Shown here: positions 2,245 through 48,422 of the stretch, piece by piece | How positions within the stretch are numbered: position 1 is the first letter of the stretch | Layout: the number at the start of each line of letters is the position of its first letter | Assembly (NCBI RefSeq): GCF_007859755.1 | Contig: NZ_SJPF01000004.1 | Span: 894-64,893 of the forward strand | Direction: 5' to 3' | Length of the DNA: 64,000 bases | Source of the DNA: Blastopirellula retiformator | Lineage (GTDB): Bacteria > Planctomycetota > Planctomycetia > Pirellulales > Pirellulaceae | The notes under the pieces: model-generated | The model's input: the letters and a program-made list of their open reading frames with translations, nothing else | The model's database searches: none | Told to the model about the DNA's origin: nothing | Position numbers and translations under genes: made by a program

Positions 2245-2485
2245 GGGCTGAGAAAAGGGGACGGGGGCAATACTGTTCGGCACGGCGGCGTGTCAGGTAC
2301 GGATTCGACTCCATCGCATCCTTTCAGGCATTTTCTCGAAGCAGTAGCGTTGTGCAAGAGACCAACGCGTTTTACGTCCGCGCAGCATCGACCCGAAGAC
2401 CGCTGGGACGGCGGACTCCTTGAAGCGGACTACGATTGTTTCTCTGCAGACGCGGCGGATTGTTTCTGGATCTTCTTCAGATGGC

Positions 2486-5853: not shown

Positions 5854-6620
5854 AGGACGCCACCTAGACAAGGAGGATGTTTACAAGTCGTCGCTGCATC
5901 CTCCCTGATTCGATCTCTGACGGCGCCTTCCTGCACGCTCTCTCCATCGTGACGCTGGACCTGAAATCAGAGCCAGCACAGCGGACTACGGGGCTGTTAT
6001 CGACCAAAAACCGAACGCACTTTACCCATTTTCGCACATTCCACCGATCCGGCAGGGACGTATGGCTTTCCGCTCTTCCTTTTTCGCTTGCCCGATTGCC
6101 CGATTTTTTGTATAAATATGTTCAGGCATGCCGTGAATGAATTCCCACGAGTGAATTGCATGAATTTGCCTTTCACCGACCCCGTGGAGACGGGGAGTGA
6201 TCTTGCCGCTGGGTGACTTTGCTCCTGGGCTTTTACGCCTGAGATAGTGGAGAGGAGCAAACGTAAGCCCAACAAAGAGACCAGTCACCTGCGAATTTGC
6301 AGCGTGTTACCTGGCTGGGTCTTCGTTGCCTGTCCGCTTGCGCGTCGTTTTTGGGGACGTTGTTTGTTTCGGCGTACGCGCAGTTGAAGCCGGGTGTAAT
6401 TCAGAAGCGTTTCCGGCGGAGATCGCCGAGTGGGACGAAAACCTCACGAGGTTAACGGGTTGCGTCGATTTCCATCGCGAGACGACCTGGCGAGCAGAAA
6501 AAAAGTGTGCGGCGTGAGTCCACTATGACACGAAAAAAGCAACGCGGTCCGGTCCAGTCGGTGCGGAAATAGGATCCGGGGTAGGGTGCGTCTGGACGCA
6601 CCGAGAGCCTGCTGTTGCGT
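5854..6620. other. Intergenic stretch without a recognised gene
   Basis: No convincing coding frame is seen on either strand. It includes a small palindrome (GGTGCGTCTGGACGCACC, about 6585-6602) whose counterpart lies on the far side of the insertion sequence near 8391-8410. It also holds one occurrence of an A-tract followed by GGTCCAGTC (6532-6559), a motif that recurs in other gaps of this window. Confidence 0.6.
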
Positions 6621-6624
6621 CTAG

Positions 6625-6773
6625 CAGTCCGTTGATTTTCTCGACGGACTGCGTGATCGCACGGATGCGATCCCAAAATAGCGACGTAAGTCGTTATTTT
6701 GCGAGCCGCGAAGAGCTATGCTCTGAGCCTGGCGAGGTTGAAAAATGCCACGATGGCATTTTTCAACAGGCAG
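6625..6773 (+). mobile_element. 149-bp five-hairpin miniature element, copy A
   Basis: Flanked by CTAG on both sides (6621-6624 and 6774-6777). The interior is a chain of five hairpins: 6625-6651 (CAGTCCGT stem), 6655-6672 (GATCGCA stem), 6674-6701 (CAAAATAGCGAC stem), 6712-6724 (AGAGC stem) and 6738-6766 (TTGAAAAATGCCA stem, perfect 13 bp). The two ends are imperfect inverted repeats ending in GTTGA. There is no coding capacity. Used here as the reference copy. A YTAR target duplication is the habit of the IS5 group, so a MITE derived from such an element is the likely explanation. Confidence 0.88.
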
Positions 6774-6802
6774 CTAGGGATACCTTCGCGTGGCAACGCA
6801 AT

Positions 6803-8328
6803 GAGGCTGTGAGTTTTTCCAACCCGCCTTGGCGACCTCAGATCGCGGCGCTAAAACGGGGGGATGGATAACTCAGATTCACAACCAGACGTTGCTCGGG
6901 TGCGCGTGAAGCGGCCGGAGCGGTTTCAAGTTCAGTTCCGAGACGCTTCGTTGGATCAGATGATTCCGCGCGATCATCGCGTGCGGGCGGTCTGGGCCTA
7001 TGTCGATTCGCTCGATCTGACGCCCCTTTATCGGAAGATTCGCGTCGTCGAAGGATCGGCCGGACGCGACGCCGTCGATCCAAAAAACTTGATGGCGTTG
7101 TGGATGTTCGCGATTATCGAAGGAATCAGCAGCGCCCGGCATTTGGCTCGACTGTGTAAGCGCGACTTGGCTTATCTGTGGATCTGCGGCGACGTCGGCG
7201 TGAACTATCACCTGCTTGCCGATTTTCGCACGATGCATGGCGAGTTCCTGGACGAACTGCTGACCGACACCATCGCGACGCTGCTGCACCAGAATATCGT
7301 CACGCTGGAAACGGTCGCTCAGGACGGTATGCGAGTGCGGGCCAGCGCCGGGACCAGTTCGTTTCATCGCCGGCAGACGTTGGAAAAATGTCGCGAGGAA
7401 GCGGCGGCGCAGGTGAAAAAGTTGCGTGACGAAAGCGACGACAATTCGGATACCGGCGTTAGCGACGCGCGCCGCCAGGCGGCTCAAGAGCGGGCGGCGC
7501 GGGAGCTGTTGGAGCGGGTGAACAAAGCCTTGGAAGAGTTGCCGGAAGTGCAGCGACAAAAAGACCAGCAGAATAAAAGTAAGCGCAAAGAGGCGCGCTG
7601 CAGTACGACCGACCCGGAAGCCCGCAACATGAAGATGGCCGGAGGCGGATTTCGTCCGGCCTACAACGTGCAATTCGCGACCGACGCCGAGACGCGCTTG
7701 ATCGTCGGCGTCGACGTCACCAACAACGCCAGCGACGGCAATCAGATGCGGCCGATGCATGAAAAGCTCTGCGAGCGTTATGACAAAACTCCCCAGCATT
7801 ACATCGTCGACGGTGGGTTCGCGAGCCGGGGAGGAATCACCGCGGTCGAGCAAGCCGGCAGTCAAGTGACGGCGCCGATGACTTATGTCGAGCAGATCGA
7901 AAAGCGGGGGGGCGACCCGTACCAGCGTCGAAAAAAGGACAACGACGAAATGGCTGGGTTCCGCGAACGGATGAAAACGGAAGAGGCCCAGAACCGGCTC
8001 AAACAACGTCCCTCGATCGCGGAATACCCCAACGCCGAATGCCGCAACCGGGGTCTGCAACAGTTCCGAGTTCGCGGCCGAGAAAAAGTGAATGCGGCGA
8101 CGCTGTGGTACGTCATCACCCACAACTTCCTGAGGATGATGAGTCTGGGAATCTTAAAACCGGCCTAAAAAGGAGAACCAAGCAGGGCGGAACCAAGCGA
8201 TCCGGCCTCGAACGGACCGCCGCCATCCGCCCCAGCAAACACAAAAATCGAGCGTTCACCCCAGAAAATCAAAAACCGCTCCTGCAGCGAGGCGAAAAAG
8301 TCGCGACGGAGAATAAACTCACAGCCTC
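6803..8328 (+). mobile_element. IS1182-family insertion sequence
   Basis: Inverted ends GAGGCTGTGAGTTT at 6803-6816 and its complement at 8315-8328 enclose a single transposase gene; total about 1.53 kb, normal for the family. Outside the ends, TCGCGTGGCAAC (6786-6797) and its reverse complement (8347-8358) face each other. The element therefore appears inserted in the loop of a palindromic repeat. The exact ends are inferred from the repeats and could be off by a few bases. Confidence 0.8.
6864..8168 (+). CDS. IS1182-family transposase (DDE)
   Basis: 434 residues, an intact frame of the expected length. The N-terminal part is a DUF772/InsH-like domain (residues about 25-120; RDAVDPKNLMALWMFAIIEG). 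A charged, helix-rich insertion follows at about 170-245, then a DDE_Tnp_1-type catalytic domain. Candidate acidic residues lie in TVAQDGMRVRAS near residue 155 and in LIVGVDVTNNASDGNQ near residue 295. The C-terminus (WYVITHNFLRMM) is typical of IS1182 proteins. No frameshift or internal stop, so the element may be active. Confidence 0.92.
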   Translation: MDNSDSQPDVARVRVKRPERFQVQFRDASLDQMIPRDHRVRAVWAYVDSLDLTPLYRKIRVVEGSAGRDAVDPKNLMALWMFAIIEGISSARHLARLCKRDLAYLWICGDVGVNYHLLADFRTMHGEFLDELLTDTIATLLHQNIVTLETVAQDGMRVRASAGTSSFHRRQTLEKCREEAAAQVKKLRDESDDNSDTGVSDARRQAAQERAARELLERVNKALEELPEVQRQKDQQNKSKRKEARCSTTDPEARNMKMAGGGFRPAYNVQFATDAETRLIVGVDVTNNASDGNQMRPMHEKLCERYDKTPQHYIVDGGFASRGGITAVEQAGSQVTAPMTYVEQIEKRGGDPYQRRKKDNDEMAGFRERMKTEEAQNRLKQRPSIAEYPNAECRNRGLQQFRVRGREKVNAATLWYVITHNFLRMMSLGILKPA

Positions 8329-8610
8329 AATGGAGTGGGTGATTGGGTTGCCACGCGAGTTATTGAAACAACCGATGCGGCAGGTTCGTGGTGCGTCTCG
8401 ACGCACCCTACCTAAGAAAGAAACGAAACGATCCAGTCCACAGCCCCAAGGGGGCGATCTAAAGCAGCCCCGGGTTTGGAATCCGAACAGATTTAAAAGC
8501 CCTGAAGGGGCGCGCTAACGAGCCATGTTCCCACTCGAAAAAAACGAAATGGTCCAGTCCTACCAAGCAGTTCAATCAATCAACCTCCAATCCGTATTCT
8601 AGATATCACC
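8329..8610. other. Repeat-rich gap after the insertion sequence
   Basis: No gene seen. It contains the right arm of the palindrome that hosts the insertion sequence (8347-8358), a second small palindrome (GGTGCGTCTCGACGCACC near 8391-8410), and two occurrences of an A-rich tract followed by (G/A)TCCAGTCC (8416-8439 and 8537-8560). Confidence 0.55.
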
Positions 8611-13934: not shown

Positions 13935-14011
13935 CCCGTGCCGCTTCTCGCTTTGACGACCCGCAAAGGTTCTGCTGCGGGTTCGTGATCATGGTGATCG
14001 CTGTACGCTAG

Positions 14012-14160
14012 CAGCCTGTTGAAAAATGCCATCGTGGTATTTTTCAGCCTCGCCAGGCTCAGAGCGTAGCTCTTCGCGGCTCGCAAAATAATGACTTACG
14101 TCGGTATTTTGGGATCGCATCCCTGCGATCACGCAGTCCGTCGAGAAAATCAACGGAGTG
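14012..14160 (-). mobile_element. 149-bp five-hairpin miniature element, copy B
   Basis: Reverse orientation to copy A, exactly 149 bp. Left flank is CTAG (14008-14011) and right flank is TTAG (14161-14164), one mismatch from a perfect duplication. The right-hand TTAG supplies the TAA stop of the RND pump gene on the minus strand (CTAG would give TAG at the same place). It also carries substitutions not seen in other copies (GGTATTTTTCAG, GGAGTG end), so it is an older insertion. Confidence 0.88.
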
Positions 14161-17100
14161 TTAGGTAGCCGGCGTTTCCGTTGCCTTCGGCTTGGCGGCG
14201 AGTTTCCGCAAGACGACGTAAAACACCGGCGTCAAAAACAACCCGAAGATCGTCACGCCCAGCATCCCGGCGAAGACCGCGGTCCCCAGCACGCGACGCA
14301 TTTCAAAACCGGCGCCAGTCGCGATCAACAGCGGAATCACGCCCAGGATAAACGAGAACGCCGTCATCAGGATCGGACGCAAACGCAATCGACAGGCGTT
14401 GACCGCCGCTTCAAAGCGGTCCTTGCCGGCATCCTCTTCCTGCTTGGCGAACTCGACGATCAAAATCGCGTTCTTACAGGCCAGACCGACCAACACGATA
14501 AATCCGATCTGCGTCAGGATGTTGTTATCCATACCGCGGAACCAAATACCGACAATCGCAAACAAGATGCACAGCGGCACGATCAAAATGATCGCCAGCG
14601 GCAAGATCCAGCTTTCGTACTGAGCGGCCAGCGTCAGAAAGACGAACAGCACCGCCAGCGGAAACAGGTAAACGATGGTGTTGCCCGCCTGGCGTTCCTG
14701 ATAGGCGATGTCGGTCCAGGCATAGCCGAATCCCGGCGGCAGGTTTTGATCGGCCAACTCCTCAATCGTCGCCAACGATTGACCGGTACTGAAACCAGGC
14801 ATCGTGTCGCCGTTGATATCGGCCGCCGGATATAGGTTGTAGCGAACCAGACGGTCAGGCCCGGTCACCCGCTGCAATTGCACGACCGAACCTAGGGGCA
14901 CGGTGGCGCCACGTTCGCTACGGGTCCGCAACTGTAAAATGTCGCTGGCTTCGTCACGGAACTCCGGCTCGGCCTGGGCGGTCACGCGATAGGTGCGTCC
15001 CAGGAAGTTGAAGTCATTGATGTAGACCGAACCGAGGTAAACCTGCAGCGCCGTGAAAACGTCGCTCACCGGGATGCCCAGCATTTCGGCCTTCGTCCGA
15101 TCAACGTCGGCAAAGACCTGCGGCACGCTGAGTCGGTAGTTGGAGTAAACCTGAACCAGGCCGGGGCTGGCGTTGGCGTCGGCCAGCATCTTATTGGTCA
15201 CTTGATTCAAAGCGTCGAGGCCGGCGCCGCTTTGATCCTGAATGTAAAGCTTGTAACCGCCGCCACGGCCGATACCACGGACCGGCGGAGGCTGAATCAC
15301 AAAGATCTGCGCTTCGTTGATCTTGCCCATTTCGACCCGCAGGTCGTTGACGATCGCGTCTAAACTGCGACCGCGAGCCGCGCGAGCCTTCGCATCTTCG
15401 AGCGGCAGGAAGGTGACCGCGGCGTTCGGGCTGATCGTGAACGTCGATCCATTCAGACCGGCGATGCCGACCGCATGCGCGACGCCATCCACCTTGCCGC
15501 CCACTTCGGCGACCTTTTTGGTGACGATGTCGGTTCGAGCAAGCGCGGCGCCATCGGGCAGGCGAATACTACAGATCAAGTAGCCTTGGTCTTGCTGCGG
15601 AATAAAGCCGGTCGGCACCAGGCCAAAGCTGTACCACGTGGCGACCAGCAGCCCGACATAGCCCAGCAGCACGACCGCCGAAAAGCGGATCGTCCGGCCA
15701 ATCAGCCAGGCGTACCAATCGCTGGAAACGTCAAACGTACGATTGAACCAGCGGAAGAACCAGCCGAAGCAGATGTCGCCGGCGCGATCGAGGAATCCGC
15801 TCGAAGCTTCCCCCTTGGGACGCAACAACAAGGCGCACATCGCCGGGCTCAAGGTCAGCGACACGAAGGTCGAAAACCCGGTCGAGATCGCAATCGTCAA
15901 GGCGAACTGTTGATAGAACTGACCGCTGATGCTGGGGACGAACACAGTCGGCACAAACACGGCGATCAACACCAGCGTCGTCGCGATCAGCGCCGATCCG
16001 ACGTCGTCCATCGCTTTGTGCGTCGCCGCTCGCGGGTCCATCCCTTCGCCGATCAAACGCTCGACGTTCTCCACCACAACGATCGCATCGTCGACCACGA
16101 TGCCGATCGCCAGCACCAGACCAAACAGCGACAGCGTGTTGAGCGTCACCCCCAGCGACTGCATCGCAGCGAACGTACCAATCAACGAGATCGGAATCGC
16201 AATCACCGGAATGATCGTGGGGCGCCAGCCATGCAGGAACAAGAAGACGGTCAGCACAACCAACACCGTGGTGATGACCAGGGTCTCAAACACCTCGGCG
16301 ATCGACTCTTCGACAAAGTCGGTCGGGTTGTAGGCGACCTCGTAGCCAACCCCTTGCGGGAAGTCTTTTTCCAAAGCGGCCATCGTCGCTTTGATCTGAT
16401 TGGTCGTGTCGACGGCGTTGGTTCCAGGACGCTGATACACGATCACAGCAATCGCCGGCTTGCCGTCGAGATAGCTGATCCGTGAGTAGTCTTGGGCGCC
16501 CAGCTCCAACCGGGCGATGTCGCCCAACCGCGTCACGCGGCCGTCGTCTCCCCGTTTGACGATGATCTGTTCAAACTCTTCCGGTTCTTGCAGACGACCT
16601 TGCGTCGTCACGTTCAACTGGAAGGCGCCGGTATCGTCGGTCGGCGGTTGGCCGATCACGCCCGCGGCGACTTGCACGTTTTGACCACGAACCGCCGCCA
16701 CGACGTCGCCCGGCGACAAGTCGAGATAGGTCATCCGCTCGATATCGAGCCAGACCCGCATCGCGTATTCGTTACCGCCGGCGATCCGCACGTCGCCGAC
16801 TCCATCCAAACGCATCAAGGCGTCGCGAACGCGCAAGAAGGCGAAGTTACTGATGTACAGCTGATCGCGGCTGCCGTCGGGCGAAGTGAGGTGCGCCACC
16901 AGCAGCATGTCGGGAATCTGCTTGGTGGTCGTCACCCCGATTTGGCGAACCGCCTCCGGCAGGCGGGGCAATGCGACCGAAACGCGGTTTTGCACCAACA
17001 CCTGGGCGTCGTCCAGGTCGGTTCCCAGTTTAAACGTCACCGTCAGCAGCATCGTGCCGTCGGCGCTAGAGGACGACTCCATGTAAAGCATGTCGTCGAC

Positions 17101-17319
17101 GCCGTTCATCTCTTGCTCGATCGGCGTCGCGACGGTGTCGGCGATCACCTGCGGCGTGGCGCCAGGATAGCTGGCTCGCACCTGAATCGTCGGCGGCGCG
17201 ACGTTCGGATATTGCGAGACCGGCAGCGTCAGGTACGTAATGCCGCCGACCAGCACGATGATGAACGACAGCACCGACGCAAAGATCGGCCGCTCGATAA
17301 AAAAGTGAGGAAACTTCAC
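14161..17319 (-). CDS. RND multidrug efflux pump, HAE1 family inner-membrane transporter
   Basis: 1052 residues, the normal length of AcrB/MexB-type pumps. Visible landmarks: FFIERPIFASVLS at the N-terminus, the first helix, two large periplasmic loops, the proton-relay Asp pair in GIVVDDAIVVVENVERL near residue 410, and ALTLSPAMCALLL-type helix 6 sequence. The GFIPQQDQGYLI segment opens the second half, and AKQEEDAGKDRFEAA follows. It works as a trimer, driving substrates outward at the expense of the proton gradient. Its ATG overlaps the TGA of the adaptor gene upstream. No outer-membrane TolC-type gene is nearby. The stop codon is provided by the flank of a miniature element. Confidence 0.95.
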   Translation of the reverse strand: MKFPHFFIERPIFASVLSFIIVLVGGITYLTLPVSQYPNVAPPTIQVRASYPGATPQVIADTVATPIEQEMNGVDDMLYMESSSSADGTMLLTVTFKLGTDLDDAQVLVQNRVSVALPRLPEAVRQIGVTTTKQIPDMLLVAHLTSPDGSRDQLYISNFAFLRVRDALMRLDGVGDVRIAGGNEYAMRVWLDIERMTYLDLSPGDVVAAVRGQNVQVAAGVIGQPPTDDTGAFQLNVTTQGRLQEPEEFEQIIVKRGDDGRVTRLGDIARLELGAQDYSRISYLDGKPAIAVIVYQRPGTNAVDTTNQIKATMAALEKDFPQGVGYEVAYNPTDFVEESIAEVFETLVITTVLVVLTVFLFLHGWRPTIIPVIAIPISLIGTFAAMQSLGVTLNTLSLFGLVLAIGIVVDDAIVVVENVERLIGEGMDPRAATHKAMDDVGSALIATTLVLIAVFVPTVFVPSISGQFYQQFALTIAISTGFSTFVSLTLSPAMCALLLRPKGEASSGFLDRAGDICFGWFFRWFNRTFDVSSDWYAWLIGRTIRFSAVVLLGYVGLLVATWYSFGLVPTGFIPQQDQGYLICSIRLPDGAALARTDIVTKKVAEVGGKVDGVAHAVGIAGLNGSTFTISPNAAVTFLPLEDAKARAARGRSLDAIVNDLRVEMGKINEAQIFVIQPPPVRGIGRGGGYKLYIQDQSGAGLDALNQVTNKMLADANASPGLVQVYSNYRLSVPQVFADVDRTKAEMLGIPVSDVFTALQVYLGSVYINDFNFLGRTYRVTAQAEPEFRDEASDILQLRTRSERGATVPLGSVVQLQRVTGPDRLVRYNLYPAADINGDTMPGFSTGQSLATIEELADQNLPPGFGYAWTDIAYQERQAGNTIVYLFPLAVLFVFLTLAAQYESWILPLAIILIVPLCILFAIVGIWFRGMDNNILTQIGFIVLVGLACKNAILIVEFAKQEEDAGKDRFEAAVNACRLRLRPILMTAFSFILGVIPLLIATGAGFEMRRVLGTAVFAGMLGVTIFGLFLTPVFYVVLRKLAAKPKATETPAT

Positions 17320-22545: not shown

Positions 22546-22884
22546 ATGGAGCCCCCGACCTTGACCGACACTCAACTACCCGACATTTCGGGTACCTCGC
22601 TGCGACTTGCGCTCGACAACGTCCGTGTGCAGAAGTTTTTGGATGGGCTCACCCCGCACATTGACGAACTGGTCGCCGCGGTTAAAGACAAAAATTGGAC
22701 CGAAGCGGGCCGCTTGAGCCACTTCATCTATCGCTGCAGCGAAGTCTACGGCTACCCCGAAATTGCCGAAATCGCGGGCTCGGTCTGCAACGCCGCCGCC
22801 GGCGGAGACAAGCAATTGGCGGGGCGTCACGTGCTGAAACTGCTGGGCGCCTACGCCCGCGCCGGCCGGAAAACAATGGTTTAA
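22546..22884 (+). CDS. HPt-like phosphotransfer domain protein
   Basis: 112 residues, all helical. The segment AGRLSHFIYRCSEVYGYPEIAE is laid out like the phosphorylated helix of HPt domains (H-x-x-K/R-G...L-G...L), with His59 in the expected place, an early helix with SLRLALDN and a late helix KLLGAYARAG. The usual HxLKG signature is altered to HFIYR, so it may be a diverged or inactive HPt. No histidine kinase is adjacent. The stop TAA (22882-22884) lies within the TTAA target duplication of a miniature element. Confidence 0.6.
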   Translation: MEPPTLTDTQLPDISGTSLRLALDNVRVQKFLDGLTPHIDELVAAVKDKNWTEAGRLSHFIYRCSEVYGYPEIAEIAGSVCNAAAGGDKQLAGRHVLKLLGAYARAGRKTMV

Positions 22885-23033
22885 CTGCCTGTTGCAAAAT
22901 GCCATCGTGGCATTTTGCAACCTCGCCAGGCTCAGAGCATCGCTCTTCGCGGCTCGCAAAATAACGACTTACGTCGTTATTTTTGGATCGCATCCGTGCG
23001 ATCACGCAGTCCGTCGAAAAAATCAACGGACTG
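22885..23033 (-). mobile_element. 149-bp five-hairpin miniature element, copy C
   Basis: Reverse orientation, exactly 149 bp, TTAA on both sides (22881-22884 and 23034-23037). The left TTAA carries the stop codon of the HPt-like gene. The terminal hairpin at 22891-22921 has a changed base pair relative to copy A (TTGCAAAATGCCA with TGGCATTTTGCAA), altered on both arms so that pairing is kept. Confidence 0.9.
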
Positions 23034-24712: not shown

Positions 24713-25582
24713 ATGACCTATCAAATCGAACCGAGCAAAAAGTTCCTCGTCGGCATCGACTCTGACGGCTGCGTCTTCGACACGATGGAACTGAAGCACA
24801 AAGAATGCTTCATCCCCAACATCATCAACTACTACGAACTGCAAGGCGTCAGCAAGTACGCTCGCGAAGCGGCCGAGTTCGTTAATCTCTACAGTAAAAG
24901 CCGCGGCATCAACCGCTTTCCGGCTTTGATCGAAGCGATGGAGTGGCTGTCGAAGCGTCCCGAAGTGAAGTCGCGCGGCTACGAAATCAAGATCCCGCAG
25001 GCGGTCGTCAAATGGATGAAGGAAGAGACGAAGCTCGGCAACCCGGCGCTCGAAAAGAAGGTTGCCGAAACGGGTGACGAAGAACTGGCCCACGCCTTGA
25101 AGTGGTCGGTCGCCGTCAACGAAATGATAGCCGGCATGGTCCGCGGCGTTCCGCCGTTCCCGTATGTGCAAGAGTCGCTCGAAAAGCTGAAAGACAGCGC
25201 CGACATGCTGGTCGTTTCGGCCACGCCGAACGAAGCGCTCGAAGCCGAGTGGTCGGAACATGGCCTGACGCAGTACGTCACCGCCATCTGCGGCCAGGAA
25301 GCCGGCAACAAGAAAGAGACGCTGACCAACGCGACCAAGTACGCCGAGAACCACACCCTGATGATCGGCGACGCCCCCGGCGACTACGCCGCCGCCAAGG
25401 CCAACAACTGCCTCTTCTACCCGATCAACCCGGGCGATGAAGAAAACAGCTGGAAGCGATTCCGCGATGAAGGCGTCGACAAGTTCCTCAGCGGCGAATT
25501 CGCCGGCGACTACCAACAGGCGTTGCTCGACGAATTTGATCGCTACCTGCCGTCGCGTCCCAGCTGGCCGGTCGAAGACTAA
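24713..25582 (+). CDS. HAD-superfamily hydrolase (phosphoglycolate phosphatase-like)
   Basis: 289 residues. Motif I is GIDSDGCVFDTM near residue 15 (nucleophile and acid Asp), motif II is VVSATPNEA near 163, and motif III is LMIGDAPGDYAAAK near 218. A large alpha-helical cap lies between motifs I and II (residues about 30-140). It should dephosphorylate a small metabolite. The location 54 bases after phosphofructokinase and before gnd suggests a sugar phosphate, possibly repair of a side product, but the substrate cannot be read from the sequence. The stop TAA lies in the CTAA duplication of a miniature element. Confidence 0.82.
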   Translation: MTYQIEPSKKFLVGIDSDGCVFDTMELKHKECFIPNIINYYELQGVSKYAREAAEFVNLYSKSRGINRFPALIEAMEWLSKRPEVKSRGYEIKIPQAVVKWMKEETKLGNPALEKKVAETGDEELAHALKWSVAVNEMIAGMVRGVPPFPYVQESLEKLKDSADMLVVSATPNEALEAEWSEHGLTQYVTAICGQEAGNKKETLTNATKYAENHTLMIGDAPGDYAAAKANNCLFYPINPGDEENSWKRFRDEGVDKFLSGEFAGDYQQALLDEFDRYLPSRPSWPVED

Positions 25583-25697
25583 CTGCCTGTTGCAAAATGC
25601 CCTCGTGGCATTTTGCAACCTCGCCAGGCTCAGAGCATCGCTCTTCGCGGCTCGCATCCATGCGATCACGCAGTCCGTCGAGAAAATCAACGGACTG
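25583..25697 (-). mobile_element. Internally deleted five-hairpin element, copy D (115 bp)
   Basis: Reverse orientation. CTAA flanks both ends (25579-25582 and 25698-25701). Compared with the 149-bp form, 34 bases are missing, cleanly removing the third hairpin (the CAAAATARCGAC stem). It shares the altered terminal hairpin of copy C (TTGCAAAATGCC). The left CTAA contains the stop codon of the HAD gene. Confidence 0.88.
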
Positions 25698-30183: not shown

Positions 30184-30816
30184 ATGACCATTCGATTGTT
30201 AGTTGCCGACGATCACGAAGTCGTCCGCTGCGGTTTAAAGAGCCTGGTTTCGGGCACCGACATTGAAGTTGCGGGAGAAGCCCGAACCGGCGAAGAAACG
30301 GTGCGGATGGTTACCTCCGTTAATCCCGACGTCGTTCTGCTTGATATCCGCATGCCCGAAGGGGATGGCCTGACCACCCTGGGACGAATCAAGCTGGAAC
30401 GGCCCGACCTGCCGATCCTGATCTTGTCGACCTACGACAACCCCACCTACGTCGCCCGGGCCGTTGCCCTTGGCGCCAATGGGTACGTCTTGAAAGGGGA
30501 TCCCCGCGACCGTCTGGTCGATGCGATCCACACCGCCGCCAATGGCGAAAGCGCCTGGACGCGAGATGAGCTGCGTCGCGTGACCGGCGCCCTGGCCACC
30601 CCGCGTTTGAACGCCGACGTCGAAGTGCCGCTAACCCAACGGGAAAGCGAAGTGTTGCGTCAACTCGCCCTGGGGCTGACGAACAAAGAGATCGCTCAAG
30701 CGCTGCACATCAGCTACGAGACGGTCAAAGAACACGTCCAACACATTCTGCGCAAAGTCGGCGTCTCCGATCGTACGCAAGCGGCAGTGTGGGCGGTTCG
30801 CAAAGGTTTGGTCTAG
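30184..30816 (+). CDS. NarL/FixJ-type response regulator
   Basis: 210 residues. The receiver domain (about 1-120) has the acidic pair VADDHE, phosphoacceptor Asp in VVLLDIRMPEGDG (about residue 54), Thr/Ser in LILSTYDN and Lys in YVLKGDP. The C-terminal LuxR-type HTH (about 148-210) contains LTQRESEVLRQLALGLTNKE and the recognition helix region SYETVKEHVQHILRK. It is a DNA-binding regulator activated by phosphorylation. No histidine kinase is adjacent, so its partner is elsewhere. The TAG stop lies inside the CTAG flank of a miniature element. Confidence 0.93.
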   Translation: MTIRLLVADDHEVVRCGLKSLVSGTDIEVAGEARTGEETVRMVTSVNPDVVLLDIRMPEGDGLTTLGRIKLERPDLPILILSTYDNPTYVARAVALGANGYVLKGDPRDRLVDAIHTAANGESAWTRDELRRVTGALATPRLNADVEVPLTQRESEVLRQLALGLTNKEIAQALHISYETVKEHVQHILRKVGVSDRTQAAVWAVRKGLV

Positions 30817-30923
30817 CAGTCCGTTGATTTTCTCGACGGACTGCGTGATCGCAGGGATGCGATCCCAAAATAGCGACGTAAGTCGTTATTTTGGGAGCCG
30901 CGAAGAGCTATCAGAAAAACGCT
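30817..30923 (+). mobile_element. Chimeric miniature element: five-hairpin family left, AGCGTTTTTC family right
   Basis: From 30817 the sequence follows copy A through hairpin three and into the fourth. At the shared hexamer AGCTAT it switches to the end of another element (ATCAGAAAAACGCT), the same end seen at 59049-59062. Both borders are CTAG (30813-30816 and 30924-30927), so the hybrid itself is flanked by a matching 4-bp repeat. The left CTAG supplies the response regulator stop codon. Confidence 0.75.
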
Positions 30924-30956
30924 CTAGCATCCGGTTGATGTTTTCAACCGGGGAAT

Positions 30957-31112
30957 AGCAGCCCGTTGATTTGCGACGGGCTGCTGTAGTGCATCCATGC
31001 GTTCCGCAACTAACGACGTAGGACGTTCGTTTGCAAACCGCGAGAGACTTCGCCAGCAGCTTGGCGATGTGGAAAAACGTCATCCGGGCGTTTTTCCTGA
31101 GATGCAACAGTC
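30957..31112 (+). repeat. Diverged relative of the five-hairpin element
   Basis: Same order of structures as the 149-bp element but different sequence: GCAGCCCGT / ACGGGCTGC hairpin at 30958-30984, an AACGACGTAGGACGTT segment, a CGCCAGCAGCTTGGCG stem and a final GGAAAAACG / CGTTTTTCC hairpin at 31071-31097. A further small hairpin (CCGGTTGA / TCAACCGG, 30931-30951) lies between it and the chimera. No target duplication is evident. The whole block forms the leader of the enolase-superfamily gene. Confidence 0.6.
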
Positions 31113-37218: not shown

Positions 37219-37866
37219 ATGTTTAACTTTAACTGCCTGTTGAAAAATGCCCTCGTGGCATTTTCCAACCTCGCCAGGCTCAGAGCATAGCTCTTCGCGG
37301 CTCGCAAAATAACGACTTACGTCGCTATTTTGGGATACCATCCCTGCGATCCAGCAGCCCGATGAGAAAATCAACGGACTGTTAAAGTAACCCCAGAGCA
37401 TGAGTGGCTGCAGCGGTTGGTTGGCGACTGGACGTTTGAAGCGACGGTGGAAGACGAACCCGATCAAATGACGCATAAGAGCACCGGCAAAGAATCGATT
37501 CGGATGCTGGGCGCCAACTGGATGATTGGCGAAGGCCAGGGGGAAATGCCGTGCCCCGAGGGAGAGAAGCCGCAGACCGGCTACACCTGCATCACGCTTG
37601 GCTACTCGCCCGAAAAACAGGCGATGCTCGGCACGTGGATCGGCTCGATGATGAACCACATGTGGGTTTACGAAGGATCGCTTGATCTCGACCAGGGGAT
37701 CCTGGTGCTCAACGCGATCGGCCCCAAATTCGACGGTACCGGAACGGCCAACTATCGCGAGACGATTCACTTGATCAACGACAACCAGCGGACCTTCACC
37801 TCGGCCGTTCAGACCGACGACGGCGAGTGGAGCACCTTCATGAAGGCGGTCTACAAGCGGGCGTAA
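37219..37866 (+). pseudogene. DUF1579-family gene split by a miniature element
   Basis: The codons from 37387 on encode a DUF1579 domain (HEWLQRLVGDWTFEA, IRMLGANWMIGEG, YTCITLGYSPEKQ), but there is no usable ATG in front of them. An ATG at 37219 opens four codons and then enters a 149-bp element. Removing 37233-37385 (the element plus one TTAA) joins the parts in frame as MFNFKVTPEHEWLQRL and gives 164 residues, a natural length. In its present form the reading frame from the ATG ends inside the element. A shortened protein from the TTG at 37417 is possible. Confidence 0.85.
37233..37381 (-). mobile_element. 149-bp five-hairpin miniature element, copy F
   Basis: Reverse orientation, exactly 149 bp, with TTAA on both sides (37229-37232 and 37382-37385). 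It is inserted at codon 5 of the DUF1579 gene. The second hairpin is damaged (GATACCATCCCTGCGATCC), but the others are recognisable. Confidence 0.9.
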
Positions 37867-46937: not shown

Positions 46938-47086
46938 CAGTCCGTTGATTTTCTCAACGGGCTGCTGGATCCCAGGGATGCGATCCCAAAATAGCGACGT
47001 AAGTCGTTATTTTGCGAGCCGCGAAGAGCTATGCTCTGAGCCTGGCGAGGTTGGAAAATGCCACGAGGGCATTTTTCAACAGGCAG
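46938..47086 (+). mobile_element. 149-bp five-hairpin miniature element, copy G
   Basis: Same orientation as copy A, exactly 149 bp, TTAA on both sides (46934-46937 and 47087-47090). It lies between the divergent ComEA-like gene and nadC, so it sits where both promoters should be. The first hairpin has partner changes (CAACGGGCTG) that weaken it. The third is intact. Confidence 0.9.
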
Positions 47087-48044: not shown

Positions 48045-48078
48045 TTTTCTTGTAGGGTGTGTGGAGCAACCGCACTAG

Positions 48079-48178
48079 CTGCCTGTTGAAAAATCCCATC
48101 GTGGCATTTTCCAACCTCGCCAGGCTCAGAGCATAGCTCTTCGCGATCACGCAGTCCGTCGAGAAATTCAACGGACTG
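48079..48178 (-). mobile_element. Internally deleted five-hairpin element, copy H (100 bp)
   Basis: Reverse orientation, CTAG on both sides (48075-48078 and 48179-48182). A 49-base internal deletion removes hairpin three and half of hairpin two. It is 34 bases downstream of nadC. Nothing else is seen in 48183-48422. Confidence 0.85.
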
Positions 48179-48422
48179 CTAGACGTGACCTTCTTGAATC
48201 GACGTCACTCGCTTGCGCGGGCCCACCTTTCGCTTGCAAGCTCTTTGTTGGGTTGCGCTCCGCTGCACCCAACCGCTTGACGTTCAAGACAGTCGCTACT
48301 AAATCGGGGGATCGTCGCTCTCTGCTTGCGTCAGGCCACACTCTTTTGCTTGCGCTGCGGGCCCGTTTTGTTTCCTTTTCGCAACGTTTCGGCGGCGGCA
48401 AGACGTCTTTTTTCGTTGGCAT

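Follow-up and report, generated by a model that had tools for sequence, protein, structure and literature searches.

A 149-bp, five-hairpin MITE with YTAR target duplications and an excess of stop-codon insertions in Blastopirellula retiformator

INTRODUCTION

What are the hairpin-rich repeats that recur along one stretch of the Blastopirellula retiformator genome, what moved them, and why do several of them abut the ends of genes? The stretch analyzed here (the window) comprises 64,000 nucleotides (contig NZ_SJPF01000004.1, positions 894 to 64,893, of assembly GCF_007859755.1). An original prediction, made from the letters of the window, described the repeats as miniature elements (MITEs) with a YTAR target-site duplication, moved in trans by an IS5-group enzyme encoded elsewhere. 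We examined the repeats, their flanks, their sites in relatives, and the transposases of the host genome.

RESULTS

A hairpin-rich element in about 300 copies

Five copies of the element in the window (6625-6773, 14012-14160, 22885-23033, 37233-37381, and 46938-47086) were exactly 149 bp long each, as originally predicted. The two internally deleted copies described there measured 115 bp (25583-25697) and 100 bp (48079-48178), and the reported chimera was a two-part copy at 30817-31096, in which a partial copy is followed by a 70%-identical relative (Table 1). The ends of the element were CAGTCCGTTGA on the left and CTGCCTGTTGA on the right. In agreement with the prediction of five hairpins without coding capacity, the consensus folded into five hairpins (-72.8 kcal/mol; z = -7.8 against 200 dinucleotide shuffles) and its interior held no gene. 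The structure obtained with RNAalifold was unlike the single-sequence fold and is left out of the results. Mean identity of 110 sampled 149-bp copies to their own consensus was 96%, and covariation has to be read against this small divergence among copies: 5,500 pair cells, summed over hairpins, contained 12 double changes, 163 one-sided changes, and 153 broken pairs. The sole Rfam match within the window was a tRNA, a consensus scan around the first copy alone found no terminator-like site, and comparison of the element with plasmids and phages gave no match.

Genome-wide, the host assembly (6.197 Mb in 10 contigs, 97.3% complete) contained 298 matches to a 33-bp inner core at ≤3 mismatches, while the reversed control pattern gave 0. 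One copy identical to that at 6625-6773 was located at G000:C2:696256-696404. The high genomic load that had been suspected is therefore real, but the window does not represent it: with 9 places in 64 kb against one per 21 kb genome-wide, the window is denser than the genome. Among 199 Pirellulaceae genomes, at least 7 had an element match when the best 4 candidates per genome were scored; four of these belong to the host's genus (host included), and the matches in the other three were partial. Since the three congeners had few and diverged matches (5, 5, and 2, at ≤90% identity), the burst of copying is assigned to the lineage of the host. Short, noncoding, and dispersed, with a target duplication and with empty sites in relatives (see below), the element is confirmed as a MITE, that is, a nonautonomous DNA transposon, as had been proposed.

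Table 1. Features of the window, in window coordinates.
Feature	Position	Strand	Basis or remark
MITE copy, 149 bp (6625-6773), with CTAG/CTAG duplication	6621..6777	+	Sequence match, flanks
Hairpin 1 = left end, CAGTCCGTTGA...TCGACGGACTG	6625..6651	+	Consensus fold; also exists alone, 27 bp
Hairpin 2	6655..6672	+	Consensus fold, element positions 31-48
Hairpin 3, missing in the 115-bp variant	6674..6701	+	Consensus fold, positions 50-77; 115-bp copies
Hairpin 4	6702..6736	+	Consensus fold, positions 78-112
Hairpin 5 (6737-6767) and right end (...CAACAGGCAG)	6737..6773	+	Fold; tip is IS4-family landing site in other copies
IS1182-family transposase, 434 aa	6864..8168	+	NF033551, 333.9 bits against cut-off of 270
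149-bp copy, CTAG/TTAG flanks	14008..14164	-	1052-aa ORF (14161-17319, - strand) ends in flank
149-bp copy, TTAA/TTAA	22881..23037	-	Duplication contains stop codon of ORF 22546-22884
115-bp copy without hairpin 3, CTAA/CTAA	25579..25701	-	Duplication contains stop codon of ORF 24713-25582
Left part (positions 1-95) of a copy	30813..30911	+	CTAG flank contains stop codon of ORF 30184-30816
Divergent (70%) relative of the element, just after the 30813..30911 piece	30955..31096	+	Both together form the chimera of the original prediction
149-bp copy, TTAA/TTAA	37229..37385	-	Near 5' end of called gene (2% of gene length)
149-bp copy, TTAA/TTAA	46934..47090	+	Upstream of quinolinate phosphoribosyltransferase gene
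100-bp internally deleted copy, CTAG/CTAG	48075..48182	-	Flanks, internal deletion

Apart from the MITE, two exact GTAG-tagged palindromes, GTAGGGTGCGTC..GACGCACC, occur at 6581-6602 (+ strand) and 8390-8411 (- strand) and so bracket the first MITE copy together with the IS1182-type gene. In form they are similar to GTAG-type REPs; at ≤3 mismatches, 14 of 100 shuffles also gave 2 matches.

Target duplication and empty sites

Flanks were compared for 123 distinct two-ended copies, a nonrandom sample. It was drawn from the window, from C1:1-800000, from the 30 loci with the best hits (L001-L030), and from 60 stretches picked around listed matches (L197-L256), with 29 partial matches in the same sequence excluded. 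Identical 4-bp flanks were found in 91 of them, whereas permuted pairing gave 21.0 on average and never more than 37 (2,000 runs), and in 1 of the 123 the identity extended to 5 bp. YTAR accounted for 72 of the 91 identical pairs (CTAG, 27; CTAA, 20; TTAG, 19; TTAA, 6); the other 19 were ATAG (10), GTAG (3), and six 4-mers found once each. In the remaining 32 copies the flanks were not identical, and in 23 of these they differed at a single base. Within the window, the flanks were those originally listed, namely CTAG, TTAA, or CTAA plus the imperfect CTAG/TTAG pair of the copy at 14012, and the wider tabulation likewise bore out the YTAR duplication, with matching far above chance (91 against 21 expected) and mostly at YTAR.

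Empty sites were sought in three congeners for four of the 91 insertions with identical flanks, picked for their gene-like surroundings, and 10 matching loci were returned, none of which contained a match to the element. At all four sites, at least one congener aligning across the junction was element-free. For the site at 37233, the element was absent and the alignment ran across the junction in L260, L261, and L262, and the same held for C1:316266 in L257, L258, and L259. At C1:51458, L266 aligned across the junction without the element and L264 and L265 aligned only up to it; at C1:565357, L263 aligned across without the element, with merely 11 aligned bases on the left. The aligned empty place carried YTAR in L258, L259, L263, and L264 and lacked it in L257 and L260 to L262. 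It was a stop codon in L258, L259, L263, L264, L265, and L266 (ending frames of 257, 257, 177, 598, 598, and 534 codons, respectively), so three of the four tested insertions occupy a stop codon shared with relatives.

Excess of insertions in stop codons

Four elements in the window abut ORF ends exactly (+ strand, 22884, 25582, and 30816; - strand, 14161). Every YTAR includes a TAA or a TAG, so that an insertion in a stop codon duplicates the stop and hence keeps it. To assign insertion classes, the empty sites were reconstructed and genes were called on them by codon usage, with local calls for the MITE sites and for 1,200 sampled YTAR controls; the counts omit copies whose flanks were not identical (32 of 123) and those with a non-YTAR duplication (19 of 91). 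Of the 72 YTAR insertions left, 32 fell exactly in a stop codon, 35 were intergenic, and 5 lay in genes, compared with 101, 565, and 534 of the controls (odds ratio for stop codons, 8.7; P = 1e-14). A larger control set with the codon-model caller gave 32/72 against 211/2,660, a cruder ORF caller gave 22/72 against 213/2,660, and a simple open-frame rule reduced the contrast (35/72 against 137/531). At stop codons, the right end of the element was the adjacent one in 25 cases and the left end in 10 (P = 0.017), a weak signal and one of several looks.

We think it fairly probable that purifying selection lies behind this excess, insertions in genes and promoters having been lost and those in stop codons being neutral; such an account concerns the excess only and is compatible with the mechanism of movement favored below. 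It fits the scarcity of in-gene insertions (5/72 against 534/1,200) and the crowding of intergenic ones near gene 3' ends, with 24 of the 28 whose distance was measurable lying within 181 bp (control median, 166 bp; n = 220). The contrast was also smaller within 60 bp of a gene 3' end, where 32 stop-codon and 8 intergenic insertions compared with 77 and 51 controls (plus 6 in genes). Nevertheless, the excess persisted among nongenic sites alone (32/67 against 101/666; odds ratio, 5.1; P = 4e-9), among nongenic sites with controls having G or C at -2 and +2 (21/42 against 77/431; P = 8e-6), and in both the codirectional (24/40 against 66/283) and the convergent (8/16 against 32/85) classes. Much of the stop-codon excess is explicable by selection against other sites. 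A more tentative idea, which we consider doubtful at present, is that the transposase family itself prefers stop codons, through YTAR and the gene-end setting, as safe harbors in which IS and MITE alike spread cheaply. If so, the duplication would regenerate the stop and spread through coding-dense genomes would cost little, and the MITE would set five hairpins right behind the stops of numerous genes, a position from which they might influence transcript ends.

A transposase family with similar ends

The mover had been placed outside the window, and we likewise saw no enzyme with matching ends within it; the window's IS1182-type enzyme (6864..8168) was rejected because its inverted repeat, CAATGAGGCTGTGAGTTT (in L065), differs from the ends of the MITE. 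A PF01609 search of the host genome returned 23 loci, one of which (L067) encodes a transposase with a matching end, and a PF13751 search returned L067 and the IS1182-type gene of the window and nothing else. L067 is truncated on its 5' side, its transposase starting at residue 63 of the relative L126, and behind it stand an inverted CAGCCCGTTGA end and then CTAG (retained right end, CTAG|CAGCCCGTTGA). This remnant occupies C1:769726-771005 (within L067/L125) and is cut next to an IS3-like gene, so named from the appearance of its protein and not by a profile; the missing left half was not found beyond that gene in C1:763001-775000. The 97.3%-complete assembly yielded no intact member of the family, and the L067 protein matched itself and one fragment there. 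Since this truncated remnant and a fragment are all that was found, amplification has probably ceased or depends on an enzyme absent from the assembly. Congener G018 had 5 MITE matches and no transposase match.

The MITE ends agree with CAGCCCGTTGA at 10 of 11 bases on the left and 9 of 11 on the right, a short and imperfect likeness, and the MITE and the IS have only ∼11 to 16 terminal bases in common. Relatives of the L067 transposase were found at 53 loci in named genomes, and matches occurred in 38 of the 199 family genomes, 14 of them (host included) at E < 1e-60 and many others weak. The records that hold the 53 loci are labelled as several phyla, although most are metagenome bins whose labels may err. 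We surveyed end pairs at 73 relative loci (L072-L144), allowing ≤1 mismatch to CNGNCNGTTGA and a spacing of 1.35 to 1.6 kb, with no filter on flanks. Of 60 distinct pairs, 43 had NTAN on both sides; 28 had identical 4-bp flanks, with TA central in 28/28 and YTAR in 26/28, and 15 further pairs had NTAN on both sides that was not identical. Members in other genomes were mostly 1.4 to 1.5 kb long, with ends near CAGCCCGTTGA and YTAR duplications. At L130, deleting the IS and one CTAA rejoins two gene halves into one open frame.

The autonomous family, too, ended frames more often than expected in other genomes by the same open-frame rule (frames of ≥100 codons), with 12/30 insertions against 36/321 in the background (P = 1.5e-4). 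One entry, L127 of congener G107, repeats L087 of Blastopirellula marina DSM 3645 (identical over 4,038 bases), and its removal left 11/29 against 36/321 (P = 4.5e-4). These counts took loci whose flanks were identical with a central TA, keeping CTAT and CTAC entries though the background was YTAR only, and 11 of the 30 loci came from one genome (KatS3mg105).

The family carries DUF772 and DDE domains. L067, L087 (to the first stop), L126, and L130 scored 164 to 195 bits with the IS1182 model NF033551 (cut-off, 270), and the best IS5 model, NF033581 (IS5_4), gave 89 to 116 bits (cut-off, 140). Judged by these subthreshold scores, the family would best be called IS1182-like/IS5-like, nearest to IS1182 and then to IS5_4, and filed in neither. 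The prediction of an IS5-group mover therefore holds in part: the YTAR duplication and a family with near-matching ends were found, but the enzyme missed the IS5 cut-off and lay nearest to IS1182, itself below cut-off.

The IS701 family has a preference for YTAR. An enzyme of that family or of the IS5 group proper could instead have moved the MITE, the likeness of its ends to the L067 family being coincidental, and we judge this improbable. In its favor, PMC11677980 describes for IS5 a 4-bp duplication and a location at CTAA/CTAG sites, and the L067 family scores below both the IS1182 and the IS5_4 cut-offs. Against it stand the agreement of both MITE ends with CAGCCCGTTGA and the presence in the same genome of a remnant carrying CAGCCCGTTGA. 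Moreover, around the 23 PF01609 loci, further end-like motifs occurred only singly (near L051, L052, and L054), a count that excludes MITE copies, IS4 composites, and L067; the DDE searches of the genome covered PF01609 and PF13751. A 406-aa PF01609 group (L050-L059) was rejected as mover because it had such motifs at no pair of borders.

An IS4-family element nested in hairpin 5

In L061, L063, L064, and L071, and on one side in L070, the tip of hairpin 5 is occupied by another element with inverted ends of its own, AATACYGTTCGGCACG. Its profile score with NF033592 (217 bits; cut-off, 115) assigns it to the IS4 family, and it has a YREK-type motif, which we take to be the IS4 signature. The 11-bp direct repeat flanking it, GCCACGAGGGC, was exact in L063, L064, and L071 (whose sequences include unread bases), had one mismatch in L061, and was lacking in L070. 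Target duplications of the IS4 family are about 9 to 13 bp. Elsewhere in the window, positions 2252-2474 hold part of another IS4-type element (∼70% identity over 209 to 224 bp to L062 and L061).

The 1,709-bp composites (L061 and L063) thus contain an IS4-type transposase (426 aa in L061) between MITE ends, and they have YTAR duplications (CTAA in L061 and CTAG in L063, with TTAA at the shorter L071), as would be expected if the IS4-family element were the mover and the 149-bp form its deletion derivative. We regard this as very improbable and rejected the candidate: the element has ends of its own and, in hairpin 5, an 11-bp repeat, a copy of it lies outside the MITE in L062 between the near-identical 11-bp repeats GGGACGGGGGC and GGGACGGGGGG (one mismatch), and its orientation in L071 is opposite to that in L063. 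The two orientations indicate that it probably entered hairpin 5 at least twice, with inversion as the alternative. Some composites may subsequently have moved as a single unit. Of the 11 bases of the second type of flank, GGGACGGGGGC, 8 agree with GCCACGAGGGC, and at window positions 2254-2284 this flank again stands before the end of a related IS.

Smaller units

Four copies of 115 bp have one junction in common and carry T at position 38, a base found there in 13 of 110 full copies; the 115-bp form therefore probably moved as such, and 3 of the 4 copies had identical flanks. Hairpin 1 by itself (27 bp) was found twice between unequal YTAR flanks, hairpin 5 by itself (43 bp) lay between CTAG and CTAG, and a 26-bp unit in which the two outermost ends are fused also had YTAR at either side, again unequal. 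These tiny units of 26, 27, and 43 bp are at C1:439680-439714, C1:686324-686374, C1:203451-203484, and L251:2341-2375. Such units with YTAR on either side, together with the hairpins, the high copy number, and the frequent adjacency to stop codons, would suit REP-like palindromes moved by a Y1 (RAYT) transposase with YTAR as part of the element, but this is the least credible account, as left and right 4-mers agree far above permutation in a 4-bp duplication and congeners carry one YTAR at the aligned empty place (L258, L259, L263, and L264).

DISCUSSION

Taken together, the copy number, the duplication statistics, the empty sites, the end of L067, and the restored frame at L130, along with a stop-codon excess in both the MITE and the autonomous family, make it very likely that the MITE was moved in trans by the IS1182-like/IS5-like DDE family, inserting at YTAR. 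In this mechanism, proposed from sequence comparison, the transposase would recognize the short left and right ends of the MITE, insert it at YTAR with a 4-bp duplication, and generate copies while being supplied in trans; where the element landed in a stop codon, the duplication would preserve the stop, and many surviving copies would be of this kind. Movement in trans by a DDE enzyme, as originally proposed, is thus the best reading, and the L067 family the mover we infer, although what the host retains of that family is remnants. Counting against this reading are also the short and imperfect likeness of the ends, the MITE matches of congener G018 in a genome with no transposase match, the 32 of 123 copies with unequal flanks, the 15 IS pairs with differing NTAN flanks, and the aligned empty places that lack YTAR (all three congeners at 37233 and one of three at C1:316266).

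The system offers a large natural series of insertions (∼300 copies with 4-bp duplications, and congeners without the element) and ties a MITE to a transposase family with relatives in records labelled as several phyla. The stop-codon excess makes target choice and selection directly testable against each other, and the nested IS4 insertions show a hairpin of this sort serving another element as a landing pad. The insertions in hairpin 5, the stop-codon excess, and the finding of mover remnants only in the host genome go beyond the original prediction. In the titles and abstract openings of the open-licence literature we found no description of the element or of a stop-codon preference in such a family, which may be in print elsewhere, and for this phylum no title on a planctomycete MITE.

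Among known systems, REP/BIME sequences with RAYT share the palindromes, the high copy number, and the location mostly outside genes; our element differs in its target duplication and in a DDE-type partner with matching ends. The IS4 family (NF033592) is represented above cut-off by the inner element, whose role is that of an arrival in hairpin 5, not of a mover. The mover family shares with IS5 the 4-bp duplication at CTAA/CTAG sites but matches its profile more weakly than that of IS1182, and below cut-off. IS1182 (NF033551) is its best NCBIfam match, with DUF772 and DDE domains in common, yet the score is below cut-off and the 4-bp duplication is clear, whereas IS1272, an IS1182-family member, reportedly replaces inverted repeats and makes no target duplication (PMC5678879).

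Bacterial MITEs usually have a target duplication and are usually moved in trans. Examples named in PMC3733652 are RUP, NEMIS, and Nezha. Like other bacterial MITEs, the element is within 70 to 300 bp, noncoding, and bounded by short inverted ends; it differs in its imperfect 11-bp ends, the left one lying within a complete hairpin, in its five-hairpin interior, and in its ∼300 copies in a planctomycete with an excess in stop codons. This planctomycete element is a bacterial MITE like others in kind, and what is unusual is its pattern of insertion.
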